NCBI GenBank assembly: GCA_964017185.1
Contig: OZ024870.1
Location: forward strand, 21,785,621-21,849,620
Length of the DNA: 64,000 nt
DNA from: Rugalucina vietnamica
Lineage: Eukaryota; Mollusca; Bivalvia; Lucinida; Lucinidae
Direction of reading: 5' to 3'
Part shown: piece after piece, positions 2,300 through 63,918 of the stretch
Numbering within the stretch: position 1 is the first letter of the stretch
How the letters are laid out: each line of letters opens with the position of its first letter
Notes under the pieces: generated by a model
What the model was told of the DNA's origin: nothing
Database searches by the model: none
The model's input: only the letters and a program-made list of their open reading frames with translations
Program-made: the position numbers and the translations under genes

Positions 2300-3050
2300 T
2301 ATTATCTTCATGTGTGTGTTTCCTTGTTAAAACAAAATTATTCAGACACCATAACCTTTTTATAACACTATTGTAGGGGTTCAAACCAATCTCTGTGTTA
2401 GCTATATTCAATTTGTGTGATAACGAGAGTAAAGTATATAGACATATACCAAAGGTAGTATGAAATGACCATTTGGAGTCCAGCTATGATCAGTGCTATA
2501 TCCAAAACTATGTTTCTTGAACTGAGTTATAGGAAGGTCCAGATGTATTTATTCCAGAAATGAGTGGAATTTTCTTGCCCGGCAAGAAAAAGAGCAACAA
2601 AGAAAACTTATTTTCTTGTACATCATAAGCTCCGCAATCTTATTACAAATGTAATTCACAAATTTGGTTCTGCAATTAATATAACTTTGGTGCAGTATTA
2701 ATCATACAATTAATACAACCTTGGTGCAGACATGGATGTACGATATGGCACTATATAAAACAAAATAATACCAAACCATGTTTTGTTTCGACACTATAAT
2801 CAAATGTAGATTCTAATTCCTCATTAACTGATTATGCTTTGAGTATTTATGTACAAGGTTTATGCAAACTGTGGTGCCATAAGAACTTAAAGCAAAAATA
2901 GTAGAGAGGTAAAGTCAAACATAAGAAATGATTAGACTAACCCTAGAAGTACCACATCATCTACAAAGTATTTTGATTGGAAGAATAATTGCTTATTTGT
3001 GATGAGATTTGTGACCTGTTAGAAATGAAAGTAAAGTAAGTGGAAGCTGG
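2300..3050. other. Internal AT-rich stretch, no gene seen
   Basis: AT-rich sequence inside the composite element. Short related words occur near 2670 and 2710 (ATTAATCATACAATTAATAC-like). I see no open frame, RNA gene or recognisable element. Confidence 0.5.
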
Positions 3051-3053
3051 TCG

Positions 3054-3381
3054 ATGTTAGCGTGCGCAATTGGTGATTGTAACATTGATGTATTTATAAG
3101 AGTTGTTGAAGCAACAGGGAAAGGCAATGGCTTCAAAGTGCTATACAAACATGTACTAATGGACCTTCCAAATGGTGACTTAGTTGCTGCTGGATCAATA
3201 TATTGTGCAGTAAAAAGAGCTGTTTGTTCAATGACACATTAGAATATAACATTCAGCTATGACACTGAGCATGCTAGGGATAATTCTGTTTCATTTAAAT
3301 ATGCAGATACATGTTCAAAGCTAAAAGCTGAGTATGAAAGTTCAATAATGAACGAAAATCAAGTTGTAGAGTTATCCAATT
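3054..3381 (+). pseudogene. Decayed unknown ORF with one in-frame stop
   Basis: From the ATG at 3054 the frame runs to TAG at 3240-3242, then stays open in the same frame to TAA at 3379-3381. The residues have protein-like composition, for example GKGNGFKVLYKHVLMDLPNG before the stop and YDTEHARDNSVSFKYADTCS after it. The stop could be a CAG-to-TAG change. Further downstream, after the retroelement at 3581-4995, another stretch (5012-5170) reads YGPNYHLRTETDLVR and then VAEALNMFDQL in one frame, also with a stop. It may be the continuation of the same gene. I do not recognise the family. It probably belonged to the surrounding inverted-repeat element, which is inference from position. Confidence 0.45.
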
Positions 3382-3575
3382 AATAGACAAATTTAAACAC
3401 CTGGAGTTAGAAAGCTGTGTTATATAACATAGAATGTTAAAAAATTATTTACTGAATTATGGACAGAATTATCATTTACGTAGTTATTCATTTAATAGTC
3501 AAATTTAAATATCTGGAATTGGAAAGCTGGGTTATATGATATATGACATAGAATGTTATAAAACAAACAATATAG
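3380..3575 (+). repeat. Imperfect tandem duplication (~110 bp)
   Basis: A block reading AATTTAAACACCTGGAGTTAG followed by an AAAGCTGTGTTATAT-like stretch (about 3389-3440) recurs as AAATTTAAATATCTGGAATTGG with AAAGCTGGGTTATAT (about 3500-3560). Between the copies, TTATGGACAGAATTATCATT (3454 onward) also recurs beyond the retroelement at about 5010, so the insertion site lies in duplicated sequence. Confidence 0.55.
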
Positions 3576-3580
3576 AGAAG

Positions 3581-4995
3581 GTACAAGTAAGCAATGATCA
3601 GGAAAATGCGCAATCAGAAAGAAATTTCCACTCCTAAAGCCTAGGTGGGAAAAACTAAATTGACAATTAGGTACTTATAAAAAGAGCCTTTTAATTCCAC
3701 ATCTAGGTACTTCGATGACCTTTTGAACATTGACAACCCTTATTTTGAAGGTATGGTCAATCAAATTTATCCACCTGAACTTCAGTTGAACAGAGCTATA
3801 CCGAAGCCCCCTTTTTAGTTCTACATCTTTCTGTTGCAAATGGATTTGTTTCTTCTAAAATTTATGATAAGCGCGATTGATTTTGATAAAGTAAATGATG
3901 GTGACGTTCCTCGTCGTGCTTCTTATGGTGTATACATTTCACAACTTATTAGGTTTGCTAGAGTCTGCAATCATGTTACAGACTTCAATGCTCGAAATAA
4001 ATGTTTAACGGCAAAACTTCTCCAACAGGGCTATCGGTATCATAAACTTCGAAAAACCTTTTCTAAATTTTATCGTAGACACTATGAATTGATTTCCAAA
4101 TATAATGTTGGGTTAAAGACGCTTTTAAGTGAGGGCCTTTCGGAACCTGAATTTTATGGTGACTTGGTTTACAAATTTAAGAAACTTAAAGGAATAAATG
4201 ATTTTTCTTTTCAGTTCAGAAAAATCATAACACGTTACAGACGTATAGGTTATAACTTGAATGTTATGCGACAGTCTGCATGCTTAGTTTTTTACCCAAT
4301 CATGGTTGATAACTATGCTGCCTTCTTTAATTGCACGGTGGGTCGGGCGTCAGGCTCTATGATGGCCCCGACTTAAAGCTATTCATTTTAGTTGGTTGGG
4401 GCCGGAGCTTCTTGTCTGTTGCTTGGCCCACCGGGGTCCAACTGGTGTTTTTCTTTTGCTCCGGAGTTAGTAGGCTATTCGGTGCCCAGGGATTTCCATC
4501 GTCGGGCAGCTTACTCAATCTGTGAGTCCTGGTTTTTGATTCATCAGGATGTTTATCATGATTTATTTGTTTGTTCTTGATGATTCATTGACTAGTTAGA
4601 GATTCACCACGTGGACCGAAGAACTAACTAAATGTTATGAACCACTGCAGAAGCTGAGGGTGAGGTTAGGTACCTGTAAAACCGGTTTAAGCCCGCCAGT
4701 AACTTTGTGTTACTGATCGTTCCAAGTCGATACTTCTGTGGTGGTTCTTTTTGTTTTATGTCTTGGTGTTTAAAATTTTTTGTGCTGTTGGCGCCTTTTG
4801 TATGTTTTCATATTTTTAGTTAAGTTAAGGTAACTGAGTGGCCACCTATTGGGAAAATAGCTGCTCATTCGGCTTACGATATGTTTCATGGTATACGTAA
4901 GTACCTGATTGTTAGTTTGGTTTTTTCCCACCTCGGTTTTTAGAGTGGGAATCTTTTTCTTATTGCGCCTTTTCCTGATCTTTGCCTACTTGTAC
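3581..4995 (+). mobile_element. Retroelement remnant with ~98-bp inverted terminal repeats
   Basis: A left arm (3581-about 3678, starting GTACAAGTAAGC) and a right arm (about 4895-4995, ending GCCTACTTGTAC) are imperfect inverted copies. They keep the words CCTGATCATTGC, TTTTTCCCACCT and GGTACTTA in mirrored order. Between them is the C-terminal part of a reverse-transcriptase polyprotein (about 3800-4376) and a conserved-looking 3' noncoding stretch (4377-4890). The pairing of an RT fragment with inverted termini is unlike LINEs and ordinary LTR elements. Penelope-like elements can carry such arrangements, so that is one possibility; assignment is uncertain. A fragment matching the end of the right arm recurs at about 5655-5680. 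Confidence 0.6.
3834..4376 (+). pseudogene. Reverse-transcriptase polyprotein, C-terminal fragment
   Basis: An open frame of 180 residues. The convincing part starts near 3897 (DGDVPRRASYGVYISQLIRF) and runs through a basic helical region to the stop at 4374-4376. I recognise this as the C-terminal, post-catalytic region of a reverse-transcriptase protein common in bivalve and cnidarian repeats. The catalytic YxDD region is absent. Just upstream another frame (about 3805-3856) reads LHLSVANGFVSSKIYDKRD, which fits the same protein, so a frameshift near 3857 and a 5' truncation have killed it. The ATG at 3834 is unlikely to be a real start. Confidence 0.65.
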
Positions 4996-5070
4996 CTTTT
5001 TTTTATTTAGTTATGGTCCAAATTATCATTTACGTACTGAGACTGATTTGGTACGAATCAGTGTGGCTGA

Positions 5071-5291
5071 AGCGCTGAATATGTTTGATCAACTATGAAA
5101 ATTAAACCAAAGCATTTCAGCTGATGATACACACAGGCTTCTTGTAAATAATAGCAGAAGATACGATAAATCATAAAACTATCGGTATGTTTATAAATGG
5201 TATTCTTAGAAACATTGAAATTGTAATGGATCAATCTGCCACCATTGCAAGCCTTTCAAGATATTTTACTGTACTAGACAAATGGTCGGCT
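5071..5291 (+). repeat. 221-bp direct repeat, copy 1
   Basis: Begins AGCGCTGAATATGTTTGATC and is nearly identical to 6028-6248, offset 957 bp. I noticed one difference near 5123 (CAGCTGATG versus CAGCTAATG). It carries part of the decayed unknown ORF. Confidence 0.85.
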
Positions 5292-6027
5292 TCAAGTGTG
5301 AGCAATGAAAGATTCGCTAATGCTTCAGACATATTGGCTGAGCTTCAGTAGACTTACACTGTCTTTAAGTTGCTTGTAATATTACAAAAGCAGCGATTTC
5401 TATTGCATACCCAAAACATGTAGGTCATCAAATCTGGAGTAGACTCTTTGATTTAACAAATCTTCGATATACCCTGAAATGAGGAGAGTTTTATCATCAG
5501 CACACAAGCTAACACTCCCTCAGTGGAACCGCCCCCTCAGAAATTACGTCAGAAATCAGGGAGTATGCTTATACTGGGAGTTACCGATAACTTTGACAAT
5601 AACGAAAAGGCAGTAGATGTAAACTAACCAAACATGCAATGACCTCTATCGTTCTGATTGCGCCATTTCCTGATTGTTATTTTCATTTAGCTTTGTTATC
5701 ACATTATGCAGGGTCCTGAAACGAATATAGATCTGCACCATCTAGGTGAAGATTAAGAACACTCGGAGGATCATAGGTGGTCTAAGTTCGTAACAAAAAC
5801 AGTTTGTCTTTAAACTCACTGTGCGCAGAGAAGGCAATATTGTTGATGGCTAAAAAGCTACCTCGACAGATAACAGTTTTGGGTTTCATTGCCTGAGGTG
5901 TGTCTATCAACTGCATATTTGGCGGAATGGGTTGCACTATGTTCAGGAACTGAAATCATCATCAGACTTTAGATTTGAATTGGACCATGAATGATAAAAT
6001 AAAATGCTTAGTAATATTGAAAACTCT
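5292..6027. other. Interval between the direct repeats, no gene seen
   Basis: Contains a fragment related to the retroelement terminus near 5655-5680 (TTCTGATTGCGCCATTTCC). Otherwise there are no open frames or recognised elements. Confidence 0.45.
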
Positions 6028-25501: not shown

Positions 25502-28500
25502 GAAAGTTACAAAATGATACCACAATGTTAATGTTATATCAGGCCTGGACCTACCCCATAGAGACCCTGAATTTCTTTCTTTTTAGAATATGAGGATATT
25601 ACAAGTTTATGTGTAAGTGGTCTGATTTTTGTATTGTTGTGGTATAGGATCATATTTTATACTTTATAGCACTAAATTTTTTGTTGTGTTTTAGTCTTAT
25701 AGTGTTGAGTCTGTCAGGGTACCTGTAATTTGTTAATTCTATGGTCATTTTTGCCGGAATTTGAAAAGATGCCACTGAAAACAAGATTGACAATAAGTTC
25801 TTGGAATGTTCAAGGTTTGTTTAAAAGGAATGACAATGAAAGGGTTTCAAAATTAAATGAGGATGATTTTTTAAGTCATATAAAATCAGATATTGTATGC
25901 CTTCTTGAAACTAAAGCAGATAATGGAGATAATGTATCCCTTAAAGGTTATCGTTTACTTAAACATATTACTAGGCCTAGGAAAGGAAAGGGTATTTATG
26001 GTGGAATAGCTGTATATGCAAAAATGAATATTGCAAAAGGAATCACATTAATAAAGACCAACTCCACTGAATATCTGTGGATGAGACTTAGTAAAACTTT
26101 CTTTAATCATAAAAATGACATTTATTTATGTTGCGTGTATAATGCTCCAAAAAATTCAACATTTGTTAAGAAACAAACCAATGTTACCTCAATTTTGGAA
26201 AAACTTGAAGATGATATGTCAAAATTTTCTTCTACAGGTGAGATTATGCTTGTTGGAGATTTTAATGCACATACAAACATTTTAGATTTGGATTTTGTTG
26301 AAAATGACTATGAAAAAGACTCTGAAGATTTATTACCCAATTCGTATATTGGAGATGCAGTCCTTTTGAATAGAAATTCACTGAAGCGTAATACTAAAAC
26401 TGATGATTTTGGGAGGTCTCTGCTTGACATGTGTATAAGTTCACAATGTCGCATACTTAATGGCAGAACTTTAGGGGATACAGAAGGCAAACCTACATCA
26501 TATCAGTACAATGGCAGTGCAGTCGTTGACTATAGTATAATAAGCCAAAGTCTTATTAATCATATTAGTTATTTCAAAGTTGAAGAGTTTACTATTCATT
26601 CTGATCATAGCCAGATAACTACGTGTCTCAACTTAAATATAAGCAGACAGGAGGATAAATTAGGTCGTCCACCTCCAGTAGGATTAAAATGGTCAAAGCT
26701 TACTGAAAAATTATTTCAAGAAAAAATTATTTCTCCAGACATAGAAAGGCTTTTACAAAACTTCCAATTTACAATTAGGGAGAATAATGCTGAAGGTATA
26801 AATGATGCAGCATCAGAACTTTCATCTATATTTAAACAAATCAGTTCAGATATTAACACCCACTCAAAGTTAGCATTGCAACATACCAAGAAACGAAAAA
26901 CAGTGCGCAAACATAAAAAATGGTTTGACCAAGATTGTGATACTCTGTATAGAAACTTAAAATCAACTGCCCGTTCTCTTACTAGCAACTGTAATGATAC
27001 AAACAAGCTGAAGAATTATTACAAACTCCGCAAAAGCTATAAACAATTAATAAGAAAAAAACATCGTCAATTTAAATCTAAACTCTTGTCATCTCTGGTA
27101 GATCTAGAGAGTAAAGATTCTAAAACCTTTTGGAATGTGATTAATAAATTCAAAAATGGAGAAGCCGAACAGAATGACCCTAGCTCAAATATTTCTCCTG
27201 ATGAATGGCATAGCTATTTTAATAATCTCTTAAGCGTAAGGGTAGAAGAATGTGATTATGAAATTGGCATAGCTACATTGAAAAATAATTTTGATGAACA
27301 TATTACTGTCAAGGAAGTTACTAATGCAATTCGGACACTAAGGAATAATACATGTGTTGGTTTTGATACCATAAGTAATGAAATGCTAAAAAATTGCAGT
27401 ACAAATATGTTGCAATGTATCTGCAAACTATTCAATCTTATATATGAATCAGGTATTTACCCAGCTAAATGGACTGAAAGCATCATAAAACCTATATTTA
27501 AAGCAGGTGATGAATGTGATCCTAGTAACTATAGAGGTATAGCAATATCAAGCTGTTTGAGCAAGTTGTTTTCTAGAATCCTATATAATAGAATGGATAA
27601 GTTTGTTTGTGAGAATAACATTTTAAGTGAATGTCAAATCGGATTTAGGAAGTCTTACAGAACAACTGACCACATATTCACTTTAAAATCCATTATAGAC
27701 AAGTATCTTAGATCTAAACAACATGTTTATGCATGTTTCGTTGATCTGCGTAAAGCTTTTGACACAGTTTGGAGAAATGCAATGTTTGCTAAGATGTTGA
27801 AATATGGAATTAATGGGAAATTGCATAAAGTAATCAAAAGTATGTACTCTACAGTAGAATACTCTGTCAAACTGTCTACTGGATTGACTAAATCACTGTC
27901 ATCAAATGTTGGAGTGAAACAGGGATGTATTTTAAGTCCGCTTTTATTTAATCTTTTTCTTAATGACCTTCCGGAATGTTTAGGATCTAATGAGAACAAC
28001 CCTGTGTTTATTGGAACAAATAAAGTTAACTGTTTAATGTATGCTGATGATGTGATACTGTTGTCTACTTCTAGGGAAGGGCTTCAGAATTGTTTGAATT
28101 CCCTATATGCATATGCCGAGAAATGGAAACTAAAAGTAAATACAGAAAAAACTCAAGTAATTACATTTAATGGAGGGGGGCAACTTATAAAGGATAATTC
28201 ATTCTACTTTGGCAATGATTTATTGAAAAACGTACAAGAATACAAATATTTAGGGGTAATTATAAAAGCATCTGGTAATTTTAATAGTGGAATATGCCAT
28301 TTATCTAATAAAGCTTTAAAGGTGGTATATATGATAAGAAGTAGATTTCATACGTCTGAAGTGAATGCAAAATTATTATTGAAACTGTTTGATGCATGTG
28401 TCAAGCCTGTACTCTTATATGGAAGCGAACTATGGTCGGTATTTAATTTGAATCTTTCTAAAAAGCTATCAGGTGAACAAGAGTGTGCTCTTGAGAAAAC

Positions 28501-31228
28501 TTTCGATTCCTTTCTACCAGAAAAGATACACACGCGATACTGTAAGTACATACTAGGGGTGGGCAAGTATGCTTGTAACATGGCTCCTAAAGCTGAATTA
28601 GGTCGCTTTCCTATCGCTATCTCTGCCTTATTACAGTCAATTAAATATTGGTTATATTTGTTACAAAACCCATTTGAAAAAGCGACAAGATTTTCATATT
28701 TATCGCTAACGTATAATGATGGTGAAGCATTTGGCTCATTTAACCATCAAATAGGTTGTCTACTGAAATATCTCGGCTTTAGCCATGTTTGGCATAATAA
28801 AGGAACAATGTCTGTTAATAAGTTAATATATGCTATTAAGCGAATTTTACTTGACAGATACGAAGCTTATTTTAATTCCGTCATATCAGGTACTTCTACA
28901 AGAGTTAAGACTAACAATAAGTTATTAACATACAGTGAATTCAAGAAGAAAATCTGCTTTGAAAATTATTTATCGGCAAATGTTGATAGATCTATACTCG
29001 CAAAATTTACGAAACTTCGCATATCTAATCATAGACTAGAGGTAGAAGTTGGAAGATATACTAGAACAGCAAAACAGTTAAGGCTTTGTAAAACATGCAA
29101 CTTGAAAGCCATAGAAGACGAGTTTCATTTTATTTGCATCTGTAAAGCATATGACGATTTGAGAAAACAGTTGTTCAAAGATATGTCATCCATAGTTCCT
29201 AATTTTGACAATTTTTGTCTTTATGATAAGTTTTTATATATCATGTCAGTTAGTGAACTGGACATGATACCAATTGTTGTCCTGTATGTAGATAATTGTT
29301 TAAAGATTAGGCAACAATATCAGGACTCCAGTCAACATCAGGTACATTAGTTTTCAACTAGTTTTATTTGACATTTTATGGACATAATAACAATACATTT
29401 ATACACTGTTACGGCTGCACTGCCAAGTGTAATGGTATGTCACACTAACATAAGTCATATTCATAGTATAGTTTTGTACATCGTGGAATGCAAATGTACT
29501 GTAAATGTAGTGTACATGTAGTTGTCATTTTTCATCTTGTATGTATGTTATATGTTTCTGTCATAATCCTGTATGTTTTGGATTGAATGCAGATTAAACT
29601 TTGAATCTTTGAATCTTTGAATCTTTGTCTGTACGGAGCTACCGTTTCCCGGGTATTAAGTCAATAATTGAGTAGAACTGTGGACGTTAATGTGTCTCGC
29701 TCAAGGACAAAACCGTTGAAAAACTCGGCTTTTGTACACGTCCAACGGGTACTAATTATATGACCTTATTAGCAAGGCGATGATGGTGGCAGAGATTGCA
29801 TCCATTGTCAGGCCGGCTAGCGGCTGCATGTACTTGATCACATGGTAGAACTTACCTAAGTATTCAGTTTCGTCAAAGTCTGTCCTGATCAGGCGCCATG
29901 TTCCGAGCGCTACATGATAAATCACCGTAAGGCCATAAAATCCATTGGAAGTTGCTATGTCCCTAAAAGGGATTTCTTTTGGTTTTGATTCGCAGTGGCT
30001 CCTACCGTTTCAGTCCTAATTGTCTGCCATTAGTGCTACACGTGTGAACGAGAGAACAAACAGCGAAATTGGTTTATGAATGAGGCATAAAAGACCTGCT
30101 GTACAAACAACTGCGAACATAAGCCATTCCCATGTCATTGATTTTGTCGCATCTAATTCCATTCAGATATAACATGTATACGTCGATAAAAAGGCTAGGT
30201 CAGTAAAGCAGAGAGTTCGTGACTTGAGGACAAAGTCTAATTAGCGCATTAAGATTTATATAATGGTGTACGTTTTATATGAACGTCGAAAAATGGCATC
30301 TTTTTGTACATATACGTATACATTTGCGAACTGATAGAAAATGCGCTCTGTACGGTGTCGCTCACCATCTAAAAGCCCGGCCTAAAATGTTGGGATTGTT
30401 TTCAGCCTGCCTTACAGCAACCCCAAAAAGATAGATATGATGCGGATGTTATTTGAGATCAGTCAGAGGATTTATTTACATTTTCACGCTTGTGTTTACA
30501 TGATTATATTTCGCCCCATTTCATCATCGTTGTCTAAAACAATCCTTTGACCGTAACCACTAACCACAGGTGTGTTTGTCCTGTCAATACCGTCACAGGT
30601 CGCGACTAATCACCCTCTCGACATGAAATCATTGAAAGAATCCGCGTCGCTCCAAAGTTTGCGTTAAGTGTGCGAAAATTACTAGTCTTTATCATTTTCA
30701 AGTTCGAAATAAGTTGTTAAAACTCTATTTTAGCAGCCCAAAGAGATGCTAATCAGCCCGTACAGCACTGCATAGCCAACAATTGTTTTTTAAGCGTCTG
30801 TTGGTTGAATTTGCAAAATTAGACTTTCCCATGATGAGACTAAAATGAGCCGTCCCATGGGAAAACCAACAATCTGCATAAGCGAAAACAAAGGCGCAGA
30901 TCAGCTTCGCGGTAACCGCGAAGCTGATCAGCGCCTTTGTTTTCGCTACTCGGATAGAACAATTCCTCCTCTACTTAACTCCAAAATTTCAAGCTTCTAG
31001 CGTGCTTCTGTTACTGCACAGACCGGTTTGTGTCGGACCTGTTCGGAAACCATATTGTTAGTTATTCCACGAGGCGGCTCAAATCGTGGCGGGATTGTCG
31101 TTGCGGTCGTGTTGCGGTCTCGACTCAATTGGCTTAATTTAGTGTGTTGTGACTGTTTCCTATTTTAGAAAGAATTATTTACGCACTATTTGTTTAATCC
31201 TGAACGTGTGCCAAAAATGGTTATTAAA

Positions 31229-44153: not shown

Positions 44154-44240
44154 TGATTTCTTGAGGTCAAAGAAAATATACTTCAAAATGACAAAACAAG
44201 ATGTGGAGCACTTGCGTAATAACCATGTTGCACAATAAAA

Positions 44241-44476
44241 TGAACCACCTCGTGGGAAAACCAACAATATGGTTTCCGAACAGGTCTGACACAAACTGGG
44301 CTGTACAGTCACAGAAGATGGTTAGAGCCAGGAAATTTTGGATTTAGAAAGTAGAGGAATTGTGCTATCTGTGTAGCGAAAACAAAGGCGGTGATCAGCT
44401 TCGCAGTTACTGCAAAGCTGATCTGCGCCTTTGTTTTCGCCCATGCAGATTGTTGGTTTTCCCATGCGGCGGCTCA
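44241..44476 (-). mobile_element. MITE family B
   Basis: Ends TGAACCACCTCGTGGGAAAA and CATGCGGCGGCTCA. Confidence 0.85.
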
Positions 44477-44904
44477 AATGATTTTCATCAGTGGAAAAAG
44501 AAAAACAAATACCAGTATACCTTGGCATGATAAAACCTGGTTTGCGTTCGCTATAACAAGGCTGCAGATTGCCTGAAGCTTCCGCAGTTTTCCTTGGTAA
44601 AGGGCTTCAATGGTTTTAAAAGACATCAGACAAAGGTTTATATGAAATTACATGAATTTAAAATCATCTCAACAGTCATTCAAATCCTTTTCAAGTGAAA
44701 TGACCAAAAATTCAAAGGCAATTTGAACCTGTCAGCGTCAGGTATGCAAATGACATAATGAAAACATCCCTATGTAATGTACAGATTGTTCCCAAATCAA
44801 TAAGAGCTGTCGCAGGACAGCGTGCTCGACTGCTTCTGACCTTTGTCAAACATAAGGCCAAACCCAACCAGTAACCCAAAGCATTATGCTCATACATCTT
44901 TTTG

Positions 44905-46345
44905 CCTTGATGCAATAAGGCAAAATCACTGAACCATGAAAGTTACCTATAACTACCTAAGATTTAAAGGTCTCACTCATATTGTGAAAGAAGTGTGTTC
45001 ATATACCAACTGAGTGCCAAGAAACAAGGCAAAATCAATGAACCGTGAAAAAAGGTCACACTGACCTATAAGTATTGCAGGGTCAAAGGTCTAGTGACAC
45101 TTACTCATAATGTGAAAGAAAAATGATTATATACCCATTCAGTGTTGAGATATAAAGCAAAATCACTGAACCATGAAATTAGGTCATAGTGACCTATAAG
45201 TATGTTTGGGTTAAAGGTCTAGTCATACTCATTCATAATCAGAAAGAAGTATGAAAAAATACCAACTGAATGTCGAGATATAAGGCAAAATCACTGAACC
45301 ATGAAATTAGGTCACAGTGACCCAGGAATACTTTACGGTCAAAGGTCTTGTCATACTCATACATATCATGAAAGAAGTATGTTCATATACCAATTGAGTG
45401 CCGAGATATAAGGAAAAATCACTGAACCTTGAAATTAGGTCATATTGACCTAGGACTACTTTAGGGTCAAAGGTCTTGTCATATGCAAACATAGTGTGAA
45501 AGAAGTTTCTTCATAAACCACTTGAGTGCTGAGATATAAGGCAAAGTCACTGAACCGTGAAATTAGGTCACAGTGACCTATAAGTATATTGGGGTCAAAG
45601 GTCTGGTCATACTCACTCATAATCTGAAAAAAGTATGAAAATATACTAATCGAGTGTCAAGATATAAGGCAAAATCACTGAACCGTGAAATTAGGTCACA
45701 GTGACCTAGGACTACTTCAGGGTCAAAGGTCTTGTCATACGCAAACATACTTTGAAAGAAGTTTGTTCATAAACCATTTGAGTACCGAGATATAAGGCAA
45801 AATCACTGAACCATGAAATTAGGTCACAGTGACCTATAAGTAAATTGGGGTCAAAGGTCTGGTCATACTCACTCATAATCTGAAAAAAGTATGAAAATAT
45901 ACTAATCGAGTGTCAAGATATAAGGCAAAATCACTGAACCGTGAAATTAGGTCACAGTGACCTACGACTACTTCAGGGTCAAAGGTCTTGTCATACGCAA
46001 ACATACTTTGAAAGAAGTTTGTTCATAAACCATTTGAGTACCGAGATATAAGGCAAAATCACTGAACCATGAAATTAGGTCACAGTGACCTATAAGTATA
46101 TTGCGGTCAAATGTCTGGTCATACTCACTCATAATCTGAAAAAAGTATGAAAATATACTAATTGAGTGTCAAGATATAAGGCAAAATCACTGAACCGTGA
46201 AATTAGGTCACAGTGACCTATAAGTATATTGGGGGTCAAAGGCCTGGACGTACTAACTCATAATCTGAAAGAAGTAAGAAAATATACTAATTGAGTGTCA
46301 AGATATAAGGCAAAATCACTGAACCATGGAAAGTAGGTCAACCGA
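44905..46345 (+). repeat. 128-bp tandem array with palindromic AGGTCAnnnTGACCT sites
   Basis: Sites start at 45,053, 45,181, 45,309, 45,437, 45,565, 45,693, 45,821, 45,949, 46,077 and 46,205, each exactly 128 bp from the next. All are perfect inverted repeats with 3-bp spacing except 45,309 (TGACCC). The spacer is CAG in seven. About 26 bp after each lies GGGTCAAAGGTCT or a close variant (six exact), a DR1 arrangement. From 45,565 on, units alternate between two types (TATAAGTATATTGGGG and CTAGGACTACTTCAGG), giving a 256-bp higher-order repeat. The flanking units at about 44,925 and 46,330 are degenerate. The DNA pattern is certain; receptor binding is inference. Confidence 0.92.
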
Positions 46346-46469
46346 CCCTTACCGTCATGACACACAAGTCAGTGTCACAAAGTCAAAAGATGAATGACCA
46401 ACCATCCTCCTAAGTTGTTTCTATTAAGAATAAAAAGAAAAAAAAATTCTGGGAGTTCTAGATTTTGAC

Positions 46470-47100
46470 CTCTAGCCCCGCCCCCGACTCCGACCCAGAG
46501 GTCCGATGTCATGGAACCTAAAGTGTATGAAGTATGAATGCTTTATGATAAGTTGTTGTCAAGATATGCCTCCTTGTAAAAGTTACACAACAGTACATCT
46601 ATTTTTTAGTGTTCTAGTTTTTAACCTCCAGCCCCACCCCCCAGGCATGGACCCAGGGGCCCGATGCCATGGAATGAAACTTAACCCTACAGGGTACCTA
46701 TGGTCAGAGTATGAAAGCCCTCTGATAAAAAGTTTTCAAGATATAGACTTCTACAATACTATATCACAGAAAAGCCATTATTATTAATGGTGTTCTAGAT
46801 TTTAACCTCTAGCCCCACCCCCTGGCATGGACCCAGGGATCTGATGCCATGGAATGAAAGCCGACCCTACAGGGTGTCAATGGCCCAAGTATCAATGCTT
46901 TCTGATGAGTGGTTGTCAAGATATGGACTTCTAGAAAACTTTAACACAAGAATTGCCATTTTTGAAGGTGTTCTAGATTTTAACCTCCAGCCCCACCCCC
47001 TGGCCTGGACCCAGGGGCCCGATGCCATGGAATGAAAGCTAACCCTACAGGGTATCTATGGTCCAAGTATGAATGCTTTCTGATGAGTGGTTGTCAAGAT
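46470..47100 (+). repeat. ~179-bp tandem repeat, 3 copies plus a degenerate one
   Basis: AGCCCCACCCCC with GGCATGGACCCAGG recurs at 46,644, 46,824 and 47,002, with a diverged unit near 46,475. Each unit also carries GATGCCATGGAATGAAA and TTTTAACCTC. It is part of the P2 element. Confidence 0.88.
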
Positions 47101-47217
47101 ATTGACTTCTAGAAAACTTTAACGCAAGTGTGACGCGCACGCACACGGGAACGGGAACGTGGACGACCGGGGTGACTGCAATAGCTCTATGCACTTCGTG
47201 CAGTCGAGCTAAAAAAT

Positions 47218-47440
47218 TGAGCCACGACGTGAGAAAACCTGTCTACGAGAGTTCTGACCAGGTCCGGGACAAACCGGCCTGTACAGTCTCAGAAGATGGT
47301 TAAAACTTGAAATTTTGGATTTAGGAGAAGAAAATATATTACTATCCAAGTGCCGAAAACAAAGGCGCTGATCAGTTTCGCATTTACTGCGAAGCTGATC
47401 TGCGCCAGACAAAAAGCCAGTTTTCTCATGACGCAGCTCA
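47218..47440 (-). mobile_element. MITE family B directly at the P2 3' end
   Basis: Ends TGAGCCACGACGTGAGAAAA and CATGACGCAGCTCA. It begins 4 bp after P2, suggesting insertion next to or within the P2 target. Confidence 0.8.
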
Positions 47441-48235: not shown

Positions 48236-51200
48236 GAGGACCATTGGTCCTTAGAACGCTCACCTGAAGCCTGATCTTGGAGTATTAAGTCATCATGAAA
48301 TGACCTTGACCTTGAATACTCACACACCTTTATTGACTTCACAAGTTGTCTGCATCTGCAAAGTTTCAGGTCTCAGGCTGCAATAGTTTCCAAACCCAGT
48401 GATTTCTGAGAAAACCATAATTTTAATTTTGATATTTAAATGACCTTGGTTCAAGGTCAACAAATGACCTTGGCCTTCATTAATTACTTACCTTCACTGA
48501 CTCCATTAGTTTTCTGCGTCCAGCAACTTTCAGGTCTCAGGCTGCAACAGTTTCCAAAATATCCATTGTTTTCGCCTTTTCCCATGTAAAAGCCTATGTT
48601 TCCAAAATTGACCTTGCCGTAAAATAGGTCAAGGTCATCCTAGGGTCATCATTTCAACAAACTATGATGGGCTAGAGTCCTAATTGCTACATACCAAGTT
48701 TTGCGTAAATCGGCCAGCCGGTTCTGGAGAATAAGATTTTTGAGAGGTTTTTAACATAGTTGGGCATGGCGGCCATCTTGGTCATGTGACCCAAATTTCC
48801 TGATCACACTTTCGTTCCCCCTACCCATGGACACTCCACATAAAATTTCACTTTGATTGGCCAAGCAGTTTCAGAGAAGATCTTTGAAAAGTGTGTATGG
48901 ACGACAGACTGGCCAAGGTCAAGAGATGACCTTGACCTAAATTAATCACATACCTCCATCTACTCCATTAGTTGTTTGCAGGTCTCAGGCTGCAACAGTT
49001 TTCAAAAAATCCATAGTTTTTACTTTTCCCATGTAAAAGCCTATGTTTCCAAAATTGACCTTGCGGTAAAATAGGTCAAGGTCATCCTAGGGTCATCATT
49101 TGATCAAACTATGATGGGCTGGAGTCCCAAATGCTACATACCAAATTTCATGAAAATCGGCCTGCCGGTTCTGGAGAAGAAGATTTTTGAGTGGTTTTTA
49201 CCATATATGGGCGTGGCGGCTATCTTGGTCATGTGACCTGGATTTCGCGATCAAACTTTCGTCTCCCCTACCCATGGATGCTCCACATAAAATTTCACTT
49301 TGATTGGCCAAGCAGTTTCAAAGAAGAAGATCTTTGAAAAGTGTGTATGGACGACAGACAAGCCAAGGTCAAGAGATGACCTTGACCTAAATTAATCACA
49401 TACCTTCATCTACTCCATTGGTTGTTTGCATCAACCACTTTTCAGGCCTCAGGCTGCAATAGTTTTCAAAAAAATCCATAGTTTTCACTTTTTCCCATGT
49501 AAAAGCCTATGTTTCCAAAATTGAAATTGCCATAAAATAGGTCAAGGTCATCCTAGGGTCATCATTTGATCAAACTATGATGGGCTGGAGTCCCAAATGC
49601 TACATACCAAGTTTCATGAAAATTGGCCAGCCGGTTCTGGAGAAGAAGATATTTGAGTGGTTTTTACCATATATGGGCGTGGCGGCCATCTTGGTCATGT
49701 GACCTGGATTTCGCCATCAAGCTTTCGTCTCCCCTACCCATGGATGCTCCACATACAATTTCACTTTGATTGGCCAAGCAATTTCAGAGAAGAAGATCTT
49801 TGAAAAGTGTGTATGGACGACAGACAGGCCAAGGTCAAGAGATGACCTTGACCTAAATTAATCACATACCTTCATCTACTCCATTGGTTGTTTGCATCTA
49901 CCACTTTTCAGGCCTCATGCTGCAATAGTTTTCAAAAAATCCATAGTTTTCACTTTTTCCCATGTAAAAGCCTATGTTTCCAAAATTGACATTGCCGTAA
50001 AATAGGTCGAGGTCATCCTATGGTCATCATTTGATCAAACTATGATGGGCTGGAGTCCCAAATGCAACATACCAAGTTTTATGAAAATAAGCCTGCCGGT
50101 TCTGGAGAAGAAGATTTTTGAGAGGTTTTTACCATATATGGGCGTGGTGGCCATCTTGGTCAAGTGACCTAGATTTCGCGATCAAGCTTTCGTCTCCCCT
50201 ACCCATGGATGCTCCACATAAAATTTCACTTTGATTGGCCAAGCAGTTTCAGAGAAGAAGATCTTTGAAAAGTGTGTATGGACGACAGACAGGCCAAGGT
50301 CAAGAGATGACCTTGACCTAAATTAATCACATATCTTCATCTACTCCATTGGTTGTTTGCATCCACCACTTTTCAGGCCTCAGGCTGCAATAGTTTTCAA
50401 AAAATCCATAGTTTTCAATTTTTCCCATGTAAAAGCCTATGTTTCCAAAATTGAAATTGCCGTAAAATAGGTCAAGGTCATCCTAGGGTCATCATTTGAT
50501 CAAACTATGATTGGCTGGAGTCCCAAATGCTACATACCAAGTTTCATGAAAATTGGCCTGCCGGTTCTGGAGAAGAAGATATTTGAGTGGTTTTTACCAT
50601 ATATGGGCGTGGCGGCCATCTTGGTCATGTGACCTGAATTTCACGATCAAACTTTCGTCTCCCCTACCCATGGATGCTCCACATAAAATTTCACTTTGAT
50701 TGGCCTAGCACTTTCAGAGAAGAAGATCTTTCAAAAGTGTGTATGGACGACAGACTGGCCAAGGTCAAGAGATGACCTTGACCTAAATTAACCATATACC
50801 TTCATCTACTCCATTAGTTGTTTGCATCTACCACTTTTCAGGCTTCAGGCTGCAATAGTTTTCAAAAAATCCATAGTTTTCACTTTTTCCCATGTAAAAG
50901 CCTATGTTTCCAAATTTGACCTTGCCGTAAAATAGGTCAAGGTCATCCAAGGGTCATCATTTTATCAAACTATGATGGGCTGAAGTCCCCAATGCTACAT
51001 ACCAAGTTTCGTGGAAATCGGCCCACCGGTTCTGGAGAAGAAGATTTTTGAGTGGTTTTTACCATATATGGGCGTGGCAGCCATCTTGGTCATGTGACCT
51101 GGATTTTGCGATCAAACTTGAAATGCCACTACCCAAGGAGGCTCCACATAAAATTTCAACTAGATCGGCCAAGCCATTTCAGAGAAGAAGATCTTTGAAA

Positions 51201-51276
51201 TTGTGGACGACGACGGACGCCGGATCATGGCCATCCTATAAGCTCACCTTGTGAGCCTTTGGCTCAGGTGAGCTAA
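48236..51276 (+). mobile_element. Tandem-repeat-bearing element, family P1 (longest copy)
   Basis: 5' hairpin GGACCATTGGTCC (48,238-48,250) and GCTCACCTGA (48,258). 3' nested hairpin 51,241-51,274 (AGCTCACCT ... GAGCC TTT GGCTC ... AGGTGAGCT). The core is about five to six units of about 463 bp, each with CAGGCTGCAATAGTTTTCAA, AATAGGTCAAGGTCATCC, GGTTCTGGAGAAGAAGAT and CCAAGGTCAAGAGATGACC. The last unit ends in a short GACGACGGACGCCGG tract. Frames reading WRRRFLKGFYHIWAWRP-like peptides are repeat translations. No transposase is seen. Confidence 0.85.
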
Positions 51277-60843: not shown

Positions 60844-61949
60844 CTGAAAAAACGAACATCAAATCAACACAATATATTATGTTTGATCTACCATAACCCA
60901 AATTTTGCAAACTGGTATACAAAAACAAGTACATTTATGTTGTGCAATAACAAAGTAACCAGAGGACCAATGGTCCTGTAAACGCTCACCTGAGTCTGCT
61001 GCATATACCAATAAACATGTTTGAATATTATGGTATTTAACCCCAGTGCAGGGGCAGATGAAGCCCTTGGGCCATTTTCTTTTTTTCAGAATAATCAATA
61101 TTCTGTCCATTTGCCAATTTCTTGCTGGCTTTTCCCTTCAAATGACATTTTAACAGTTTTTCCCATTCAAATGCATGGGCAACCCATGTTGACCTTGCCA
61201 TAAACTTGGTCAAGGTCATCACAGGGTCATGATTTATATATACATTGTAGTACTATAGCCATGGATGCTTCACACCATGTTTCATTGAAGTCAATCTATT
61301 GGTTTCAGTGAAGAAGATATTTGAAGGGTTTTTACCATATATGGGCATGGCGGCCATCTTGGTCATGTGACCTAGATTATTAATATATACATTGGTTCCC
61401 CCATCCTATAGATGCTTCACATAAAATTTGGCTTCAATTGGCCAAGTGGTTTTAGAGGAGAAGATGTTTGAATATTATGGTAATATACATGTATATTGCC
61501 ACGGGGTGTGGGCATATGAGCCCTTAGGTCCATTTTTTTTCAGAATCATTAACATTTAGTCCTACTACCCATTTCCTGCAAGATTTTCACCTCAAATGAC
61601 TTTTTAAAAGTTTTCCCCATTCCAATGCATTGGCAACCTATGTTGACCATGTCCTAAAATAGGTCAAGGTCACCACAGGGTCATGATTTATATACACATT
61701 GTAGTACTTCAGCCATTGGTGCTTCATGCCAAGTTTCTTTGAAATCGGTCCACCAGATTTGGAGAAGAAGAGTTTTGAAGGGTTTTTACCTTATATGGGC
61801 ATGGCAGCCATCTTGGTCATGTGAACTAGATAATTTATATATACATTTATTCCCCCATTCCATAGATGCTTCACATAAAATTTGGCTTTGATTCGCCAAG
61901 CGGTTTCAGAGGAGAAGATGTTTGAATATTATGGTAATATTATAGGGTT

Positions 61950-62206
61950 CAGGGCTTTTTCTCTATACAAAACTGGGTCCGGTTTCCGGTGCCAAATTTT
62001 TTCCCAATTGGCTGAAAAAATTCCCAATTGACCTGGAACATTCCCAATTAGCAGAAAAATCCCAATATAAAAGGTAAAATTTCCCAATTTTGCTAAAAAT
62101 TGCACTATTTTTTCCCATAATTGTTGTATTTTTTCCCAAAATCGCACAATTTTTTCCCAATGTCATCGGTACCAAAAAATTCCCAAAAAAGTCAGAAAAA
62201 GCCCTG
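61950..62206. mobile_element. hAT-like MITE nested in the palindromic element
   Basis: Termini CAGGGCTTTTTCT and AGAAAAAGCCCTG, flanked by GGGTT on both sides (61,945-61,949 and 62,207-62,211). The interior repeats TTTTTCCCAATT words. CAGGG ends are typical of hAT elements, though hAT duplications are normally 8 bp. Confidence 0.75.
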
Positions 62207-62587
62207 GGGTTATTGCACTGATATCTGTGAATATTGTCCTGAGTTGGGATATCGAAGGACGCGAGCTTGCGAGCGTCCGTAGATATCCCAACGAGGGACA
62301 ATATTCACCGATATCAGTGTGATAACCCTTTTATTATATAGCTATAAATATCTACTTCTCATATTTAATGTTTTGTTGAAAGTTAGCCTTACAAATTGAA
62401 ATTTATGCAGGAAGGCCGCGATAATATACATAAGTGATATCATTTTTGCACTAGTGCAATATCAGATGATATCATTTTTGCACTGTTACTTTTCGGAAGC
62501 ACATTTTGCAATCGAATCAATATTTCTGACATTTTGTTTTCTTTTTTCGGCTTAAATTGCTGAAATTTGAAAGTGACAATTTTCAGT

Positions 62588-62659
62588 TGACGTTTCGGCC
62601 CGGTATGACGTCATTTTCCACGCGACGTCAGATGAAGATGACGTCATTAGAGTTGACGT
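62588..62659. promoter_or_regulatory. Cluster of five TGACGT cores (CRE-like)
   Basis: TGACGT at 62,588, TGACGTCA at 62,606, GACGTCA at 62,624, TGACGTCA at 62,639 and TGACGT at 62,654. All lie within 72 bp inside the palindromic element. Binding is inference. Confidence 0.5.
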
Positions 62660-63918
62660 CCCAATTTTACAATTTTGCACAATGGCCCTCAAGTCAAGAA
62701 TTTTGCAATTTTTCATAAAAAGAATTTTTCGCTTCTAACAAAGTGTGCAATATCAAGTAAGTGTGCAGATATCGTCCGATATCTGTACACTTGTTACTCG
62801 GCTTTTATCCCTAAGTTTTAATCATTTGATATCTATAGCTATATAATAAACATGTATATTGCCCCGGGGTGGGGGCAGATGAGCCCCATGGGGTCCATTT
62901 ATTTTCAGAATCATTAATATTCAGTCCTACTGCCCATTTCCTGCAAGATTTTCACTTTAAATGACATTTTAAAAGTTTTCACTATTCCAATGCATTGGCG
63001 ACCTATGTTGACCTTGCCGTAAAAAAAGGTCAAGGTCTTCACAGGGTCATGATTTATATATACATTGTAGTACTTGAGCCATCGATGCTTCATGCCAAGT
63101 TTCTTTGAAATCGATCCACCGGTTCTGGAGAAGAAGATTTTTGAAGGGTTTTTACCATATATGGGCATTGCAGCCATCTTGGTCATGGGACCTGGATTAT
63201 TTATATACACATTAATTACCCCTTCCTATTGATGCTTCACATAAAATTTGGCTTTGATTAACCAACCGGTTTCAGAGGAGATGATGTTTGAATATTATGG
63301 TAATATACATGTATATTGCCCCGGGGTGGGGGCATATGAGCCCCTGGGGTCCAATTTTTTTTTCAGAATCATTAATATTCAGTCCTACTGCCCATTTCCT
63401 GCAAGACTTTTACTTTAAATGACATTTTAAAAGTTTTCCCCATTCAAATGCATTGGCGACCTATGTTGACCATGCCGTAAAATAGGTCAAGGTCATCACA
63501 GGGTCATGATTTATATACACATTGTAGTGCTTGAGCCATCAATGCTTCATGCCAAGTTTTGTTGAAATCAGTCCACCGGTTCTGGAGAAGAAGATTTTTG
63601 AAGGGTTTTTACCACATATGGGCATGGCGGCCATCATGGTCATGTGACCTGGATTTCTTATATATACATTGGTTCCCCCTTCCTATAGATGCTTCATATA
63701 AAATTTGGCTTTGGTTAGCCATGCGGTTTCAGAGAAGAAGATCTTTGAAATTGTGGACGGACAAACGGACGGACGGACGACGGACGGATGCCGGATCATG
63801 GCCATCCTATAAGCTCACCTTGTGAGCCTAACGGCTCAGGTGAGCTAACAAGTCATATATGGAGGGAAAATAATTTTCTTTAATGTTCTAAATTATTGAG
63901 TTTGACAAGGACTCATCA

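Follow-up and report, generated by a model that had tools for sequence, protein, structure and literature searches.

Consensus oestrogen-response-type palindromes in the central array of a non-autonomous Helentron-like element of the bivalve Rugalucina vietnamica

Introduction

Helentron-like non-autonomous elements (HINEs) with satellite-like central repeats, including otherwise unrelated repeats that have short segments in common, are already known. In Crassostrea gigas, Cg_HINE has subterminal inverted repeats (subTIRs), a 5′ inverted repeat, a microsatellite and a 3′ palindrome, enters T-rich targets without target-site duplication, and carries central satellite-like repeats, sometimes in two arrays, whose orientation is fixed and whose otherwise unrelated sequences share short conserved segments (PMC7492417). 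HINE-A, the element described here, is like it in all these respects. The DINE-1 and HINE elements of arthropods (Drosophila, mites) show the same non-autonomous Helentron anatomy and empty-site behaviour (PMC4067079). The bivalve satellites BIV160/Cg170 resemble the repeats described here in being divergent families that retain short conserved motifs, two in their case, to which no known function is ascribed, and one published BIV160 primer contains TGACCC (PMC5139131). That a transposon family can disperse consensus nuclear-receptor sites, as happens here, is known from the DR2 retinoic acid response elements borne by Alu (PMC1785376). These statements refer to the excerpted text of each report. 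Here we analyse a window, the whole stretch of 64,000 nucleotides on contig C2, together with the 1.09 Gb of the genome that were searched.

Results

Ten palindromes in a 128-bp array

A motif search of the window found ten palindromes of the oestrogen-response element (ERE) type, AGGTCAnnnTGACCT, on the plus strand (45053..46219), with matches to AGGTCANNNTGACCT starting at 45053, 45181, 45309, 45437, 45565, 45693, 45821, 45949, 46077 and 46205. The search bore out the preliminary description, which had reported ten palindromes at 128-bp spacing, nine of them perfect: the spacing is exactly 128 bp at every step, and the sole imperfect palindrome, at 45309, has one mismatch (TGACCC). The palindromes have the consensus IR3 half-sites expected of a functional ERE. 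When up to two mismatches were allowed, the window held 17 matches against 2.18 expected, and none of 100 shuffles reached 17.

DR1-like motifs, GGGTCAAAGGTCT, follow the palindromes on the same strand (45080..46245, motif search). The exact 13-mer, which starts 27 bp from the palindrome start, follows six of the ten (at 45080, 45464, 45592, 45720, 45848 and 45976); near-forms stand at the other four, and a looser form follows nine of the ten. The earlier statement that most palindromes are paired with a DR1 site therefore holds, but not the statement that each one is.

Tandem Repeats Finder and unit alignment placed the palindromes in a 128-bp tandem array of 10.7 copies (44972..46340, plus strand), whose units belong to six main types and follow the order 2-1-6-4-(3-5)n. 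The two unit types previously distinguished were an under-count, although the right-hand part of the array does consist of two alternating types. A second central array, of 178-bp units in 3.4 copies, lies at 46530..47128 (plus strand, Tandem Repeats Finder).

The array lies within a non-autonomous Helentron-like element

The preliminary description had suggested that the palindromes might be mobile, which proved correct, but it gave the repeats only; it recognised neither the surrounding element (44,799-47,216) nor the kind and strand of that element. The array sits within a whole non-autonomous Helentron-like element, which we named HINE-A (44799..47216, minus strand) and delimited by the limits of homology in 12 copies and by empty sites. 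Homology between copies begins at 44,799 and stops at about 47,216 in 12 of 12 copies, the window copy included. The element is 2.4 kb long; following the published HINE scheme (5′ end at 47,216, 3′ palindrome at 44,806-44,821), we placed it on the minus strand, with its 5′ end at 47216 and its 3′ end at 44799. Its 5′ end reads TTTTAGCTCGACTGCACGAAGTGCA, and some of the A-run at 47211-47216 may belong to the target.

The 5′ subTIR, GCTCGACTGC (47200..47209, minus strand), has a perfect 10-bp partner in the 3′ subTIR (44824..44833, plus strand); the motif search found this sequence only at these two places in the window, and 0 of 100 shuffles reached two. The 3′ palindrome GCTGTC-CTGC-GACAGC (44806..44821, minus strand), identified by end alignment and folding, was found in all 12 aligned HINE-A ends, that of L006 having one arm change; its folding energy of -5.4 kcal/mol is no better than that of shuffles (z -0.48). 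At the other end, a region with an inverted repeat and hairpin (47174..47209, minus strand; folding z -2.0) contains the hairpin TGCAC-GAA-GTGCA (47190-47202), and GACTGCA, which adjoins the 5′ subTIR, is complementary to it. A GGGAAC-type microsatellite next to the 5′ end (47140..47163, plus strand) varies between copies, as their comparison revealed. Usable empty sites spanning the insertion were displayed for four copies (L005, L008, L011 and L014); these paralogous sites revealed clean insertion with no target-site duplication, before A-runs on the plus strand, that is, T-runs on the element strand. No ORF of at least 130 aa overlaps 44799-47216. Taken together, the exact ends, subTIRs, end hairpins, microsatellite, A/T-rich targets and lack of target-site duplication indicate that HINE-A is almost certainly a non-autonomous Helentron. 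It would move by rolling circle, presumably mobilised by an autonomous Helentron partner.

In the window, copies of another dispersed repeat, with the motif GATCAGCTTCGCA, flank HINE-A on both sides (44231-44488 and 47211-47406). A LINE-type retrotransposon ORF of 1,206 aa, encoding endonuclease and reverse transcriptase domains, lies at 25730-29350 (plus strand).

A genome search scored 150 Helitron_like_N matches among 409 candidates, and many of them lie within open frames of more than 2,500 aa, suggesting that likely drivers of HINE-A exist. The single readable Helitron, in L016, has no ends in common with HINE-A, and the seven Helitron matches on C1 below 57 Mb lie at least 52.8 kb from the nearest of the exact HINE-A ends listed. 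The set behind the Helitron_like_N matches, at no fewer than 150 places, is large, and its autonomous Helitron/Helentron elements were probably active recently.

Copy number and conserved order of units

A search for further copies, as had been proposed, was productive. A 22-mer of the HINE-A 5′ end has 1,085 + 1,023 = 2,108 exact matches in the genome (control, 0), so the copy number appears to be roughly two thousand. Perfect palindromes number 22,978 genome-wide, compared with 20 for the reversed pattern and about 46 predicted from composition alone. Eleven loci were fetched around listed ERE places and compared with the window. Among the matches listed, all from C1 between 0.6 and 2.7 Mb, 82 of 83 distinct ERE places fall in ten groups, and the fetched loci of each of these groups hold HINE-A; at L013, the lone remaining listed site (AGGTCACCCTGACCT), no HINE-A was matched. 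If the listed sites are extrapolated to the rest, most of the ~23,000 perfect EREs would have arisen through the spread of HINE-A. L008 and L009 (C1, ~1.875-1.886 Mb) hold HINE-A copies that are nearly identical, share their flanking sequence and lie about 6.3 kb from each other; they represent a local duplication, which was counted once in the within-type variant tests below and twice in the analysis of unit types.

In that analysis, 109 near-full units (from 131 matches in 12 elements) resolved into six main types and one single unit. The arrays, of about 7-10 units per element, keep the order 2-1-6-4 followed by 3-5 pairs across the 12 elements, with small losses and gains: type 6 is absent from one copy, another has one extra unit, and the L015 array is interrupted. 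Three further C1 arrays were read, two of which have the same order over the stretch covered, while one consists of ten alternating 3-5 units. Since unit order is kept across copies, the array has been inherited and copied as one block, and it is likely that one ancestral element already had the ordered array. The suggestion that tandem inheritance explains the repetition was therefore right as far as the array is concerned, and its dispersal is due to transposition. Chance or simple tandem inheritance alone was ruled out by the order-preserving copies together with the contrast between palindrome arms and spacer reported below.

Constancy of the palindrome arms

In the window array, the 12 arm columns of the palindrome depart from consensus only once over the ten units, the lowest value among 128 offsets (mean 14.3). 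The stretch GGCAAAATCACTGAACC just upstream is about equally constant, and when whole 15-column stretches are ranked it comes ahead of the palindrome, whose spacer varies. Between the six type consensuses, differences per column amount to 0.083 in the arms and 0.743 elsewhere; type 6 has the sole fixed change in the arms, from TGACCT to TGACCC, which still leaves a PuGGTCA half-site.

Variation within types was counted in 127 units from 14 elements, with the L009 duplicate and units with more than 20 gaps dropped. Changed cells made up 7/1,523 (0.46%) in the arms, 12/380 (3.16%) in the 3-bp spacer and 434/14,232 (3.05%) in the rest of the unit, and the arms differed from their own spacer with a Fisher P of 4e-5. 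The DR1 was less constant than the ERE arms (1.53% versus 0.46% of cells). All seven arm variants are private to one copy and none is shared, compared with 104 private and 64 shared variants elsewhere (Fisher P 0.049); for shared arm variants, zero were seen against 6.8 expected (Poisson P 0.001). Private arm variants were not clearly rarer than expected (7 seen versus 11.0, P 0.14; an earlier count in 11 elements gave P 0.33). No compensatory change was found among the seven arm variants. Of the 14 elements behind these constraint tests, 10 lie within the initial 2.7 Mb of a single contig, and units are not independent.

The palindrome is thus more constant than most of the unit, as had been claimed, but it shares this property with the sequence beside it: columns 57-89 form a neighbouring block that likewise changes slowly, and the conserved block extends about 30 bp past the palindrome. 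The proposed comparison of per-site divergence inside and outside the motifs likewise gave a divided answer, with a clear difference for the ERE arms (0.46% against 3.05%) but an adjoining block that is slow as well and some controls that are not significant. With an objective mask of all RGKTCA half-sites in HINE-A, the shift test gave 7/128, and anagram motifs were as conserved in 5 of 30 cases.

These data bear on the possibility that the array is an ordinary passenger, which has its motif by ancestry and owes its constancy to a young, homogenised array and a chance pick of a conserved block. The stereotyped unit order, the near-neutral decay within copies, a conserved block larger than the motif and anagram controls that are partly as conserved would all be expected of a passenger. 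We nevertheless regard it as a rather unlikely account, because the contrast between arms and spacer and the deficit of shared arm variants speak against it, as do the similar pattern in HINE-B and the similar module in otherwise dissimilar families described below.

Arms mutate in dead copies, and damaged arms were not seen to spread, which points to selection on the element rather than on single host loci. The pattern fits selection while the element transposes, followed by near-neutral decay, on modest statistics, and we consider it probable that the arms are under element-level constraint. The alternative of host selection for receptor sites at individual insertions, where a domesticated platform would rewire genes, has a precedent in the transposon-mediated rewiring of dosage compensation in Drosophila, as given in the excerpted account. 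That study reportedly concerns a Helitron. The Alu DR2 retinoic acid elements offer another precedent in the excerpted text (PMC1785376). Single copies, however, show no clearly slower decay of the arms, and domestication is in our view highly improbable.

The same observations could also arise if it is the transposition machinery that uses the palindrome and half-sites, either as a cis site for Rep/helicase or its RPA partner, comparable to the iterons of rolling-circle replicons, or by way of a hairpin or cruciform. Selection that seems to act on spreading lineages and not on dead copies, and a palindrome whose loop is freer than its arms, would suit such a role. However, the arm variants are uncompensated, indicating that it is the actual sequence that is conserved, and the fixed TGACCC again yields a PuGGTCA half-site; direct repeats (DR0, DR1) make no hairpin; and one would look for Rep sites close to the ends and not in ten central copies. 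We therefore hold a role in the machinery to be unlikely, and treat it, like plain passenger status, as a serious rival.

A second and a third HINE family

A second HINE-type family, HINE-B, was recognised by Tandem Repeats Finder and comparison next to HINE-A in the window, where a 465-bp array with AGGTCAAGGTCA and TGACCT modules occupies 48452..51218 (plus strand). The HINE-A copy in L015 is interrupted by a HINE-B-type element with a terminal hairpin, the subTIR GCTCACCTGA and a GACG microsatellite, and the copy in L010 holds a nested third HINE, HINE-C, whose units of about 120 bp lack AGGTCA and contain TGAACT only. Both nested elements (L015 ~2515-4665, L010 ~4094-5604) have clean junctions, each just after the repeat-unit GAAA. 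Repeats of 454-457 bp related to the HINE-B array, followed by a GACG microsatellite, were also observed in the window at 61080-63850, with a HINE-B-like end near 63,754-63,843.

In columns 20-340 of the 465, the remainder being unalignable across subfamilies, RGKTCA columns of HINE-B diverged by 0.08 compared with 0.19-0.21 elsewhere (12-19 subfamilies), the best or second-best of 320 shifts, and anagram controls were as conserved in 3 of 19 cases. When all 465 columns were used with gaps counted as change, the half-sites did not stand out (208/465 shifts). The similar module in this second family is a point in favour of a role in the transposition machinery. HINE-C, which moved without AGGTCA, is a point against it, and indicates that the module is no general need of HINEs.

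AGGTCA modules in other repeat families

The DR0 sequence AGGTCAAGGTCA has 136,183 matches genome-wide (control, 122), and the tandem families that contain them differ in period; the DR1 sequence GGGTCAAAGGTCT has 14,916 (control, 19). High site counts alone reflect repeat copy number. Among the first 100 matches listed, DR0 sites occur at 34 separate places, with spacings of ~146, 151, 168, 180-200, 353 and 455-465 bp. We compared eight short stretches from such arrays (L059-L066) with one another and with the earlier families by BLAST at E <=1e-3. About seven repeat groups emerged: HINE-A; HINE-B with L066; 166-168-bp repeats; 143-147-bp repeats; L064 (151 bp); L061; and L062 (353 bp). Matches between groups span 17-32 bp, and half-sites lie within them; the 147-bp repeats, for instance, match the 151-bp repeats over 25 bp at 92%, and the 30-bp match of HINE-A to L063 takes in a single AGGTCA together with the conserved sequence preceding it. 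For several group pairs, BLAST gave no match at E 1e-3. A TGACC-like sequence, eight AT-rich bases and AGGTCA are common to HINE-A and the 151-bp and 147-bp repeats. As judged from these alignments, common ancestry with strong constraint and convergence would both be compatible with the module shared by dissimilar families. That a similar AGGTCA module occurs in other families fits a shared use of host factors; residual similarity confined to such short segments would also be in keeping with binding by the transposition machinery.

Strict AGGTCA clusters (at least three in 60 bp) ranked first of 180 anagrams in a 200-kb C1 sample, with five families against a mean of 0.22. AGGTCA pairs within 15 bp were matched by 6 of 180 anagrams and those within 30 bp by 10 of 180. 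Relaxed RGKTCA clusters (at least three in 60 bp) occurred in seven unrelated contexts, a number reached by 74 of 720 column permutations. A genome-wide excess of half-sites as such was rejected: among 3,720 hexamers in the C1 sample, AGGTCA comes only at about rank 71, and in the window minus the element it ranks 419th by Markov score.

Nuclear receptors encoded by the genome

The genome contains 75 zf-C4 matches, and 20 short stretches were read. The ER P-box CEGCKAFF was found once, on the minus strand of C4, as the unique exact match of a degenerate pattern; for the exon with this ER-type first zinc finger, the closest solved chains are AncSR1 and human ER. An HNF4 DNA-binding domain is also encoded, as confirmed by sequence, and the finger in L045 carries CEACKA, which we take to be an ERR-type P-box. 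Of the ER, ERR, HNF4 and RXR genes that the preliminary description attributed to bivalves, ER-type and HNF4 domains and, on that assumed P-box assignment, an ERR-type finger were thus recovered, and RXR was not identified. A further zf-C4 observation is a row of first-finger fragments at C4:30355688-30356251, with seven matches every 82 bp covering model positions 2-25.

The excerpted report on a snail ER describes ligand-free binding of GGTCAnnnTGACC by the DNA-binding domain and constitutive activity of the ligand-binding domain (PMC3778743), and the excerpted text on an oyster thyroid receptor reports binding to AGGTCA probes from DR0 to DR5 in gel shifts (PMC4692385). Given these binding data and the ER-type and HNF4 domains, this animal very probably has proteins that can bind these sites.

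Discussion

The account that we put forward, at about even strength, is that the palindromes belong to the central array of a HINE whose arms are kept because host receptors bind the array where the element is active. HINE-A is presumably copied by autonomous Helentrons through their rolling-circle machinery. While the lineage still transposes, the palindrome arms would be held constant and the spacer left freer, damaged arms occurring only in single copies. In cells with an active element, the array would be occupied by nuclear receptors of the host, above all by the ligand-independent ER of molluscan type, and the bound receptors might keep array chromatin open or transcribed and so aid replication or transposition; lineages with damaged arms would spread less. 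The step from arm constraint to receptor binding as its cause is a tentative one, which we can only infer. The mobile carrier, the constant arms and the encoded ER-type, HNF4 and ERR-type domains make the earlier proposal of a mobile receptor-binding platform a live hypothesis.

A broader reading, which at present we consider rather doubtful, is that several HINE-type families use host nuclear receptors as a germline activation system. Their central repeats, dissimilar in other respects (~128, ~147, ~151, ~166-168, ~353 and ~455-465 bp), would each keep an AGGTCA module, in the form of IR3, DR0, ER8 or DR1. If this is true, at least 22,978 IR3, 136,183 DR0 and 14,916 DR1 sites would form a transposon-made field across the genome, behind the receptor biology of this lineage.

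The extent of EREs is now counted in this genome, and the listed sites lie nearly all in one transposon family. If receptors bind the arrays, mobile elements would supply most consensus sites, a hormone-receptor family would have a concrete use at the level of the element, and a possible buffer would have to be considered in endocrine-disruption work on shellfish. The arrays also offer a testable identity for the short conserved motifs of bivalve satellites, to which no function has been assigned.

HINE units with a consensus ERE and DR1, and a genome count of EREs, were unreported in the open literature that we searched. The listed titles and starts of abstracts, with figures and supplements outside the search, contained no link between HINEs or bivalve repeats and receptor sites. 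TGACCTTGAC appeared in the open bivalve repeat literature only as part of a SNP primer (PMC3706602), and AGGTCAAGGTCA served as an oyster thyroid-receptor gel-shift probe in a report whose excerpted text does not mention transposon carriage (PMC4692385). The main text of the Cg_HINE report, figures aside, contains no AGGTCA, TGACC, nuclear receptor or estrogen (PMC7492417). The excerpted text on DINE-1 and HINE likewise mentions no receptor motif (PMC4067079), and the conserved motifs of BIV160/Cg170, which we liken to HINE-A by description only, are not described as receptor sites in the excerpt (PMC5139131). Alu, in turn, is a primate SINE, whereas HINE-A carries about 7-10 tandem composite sites per rolling-circle element (PMC1785376, excerpted text). 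Compared with the cluster consensus lengths of 138-181 bp given for Cg_HINE in the excerpted report (PMC7492417), the HINE-A unit measures 128 bp, and unlike Cg_HINE, HINE-A combines an ordered array of six unit types, about 7-10 units long, with an ERE in nearly every unit and a DR1 in most.
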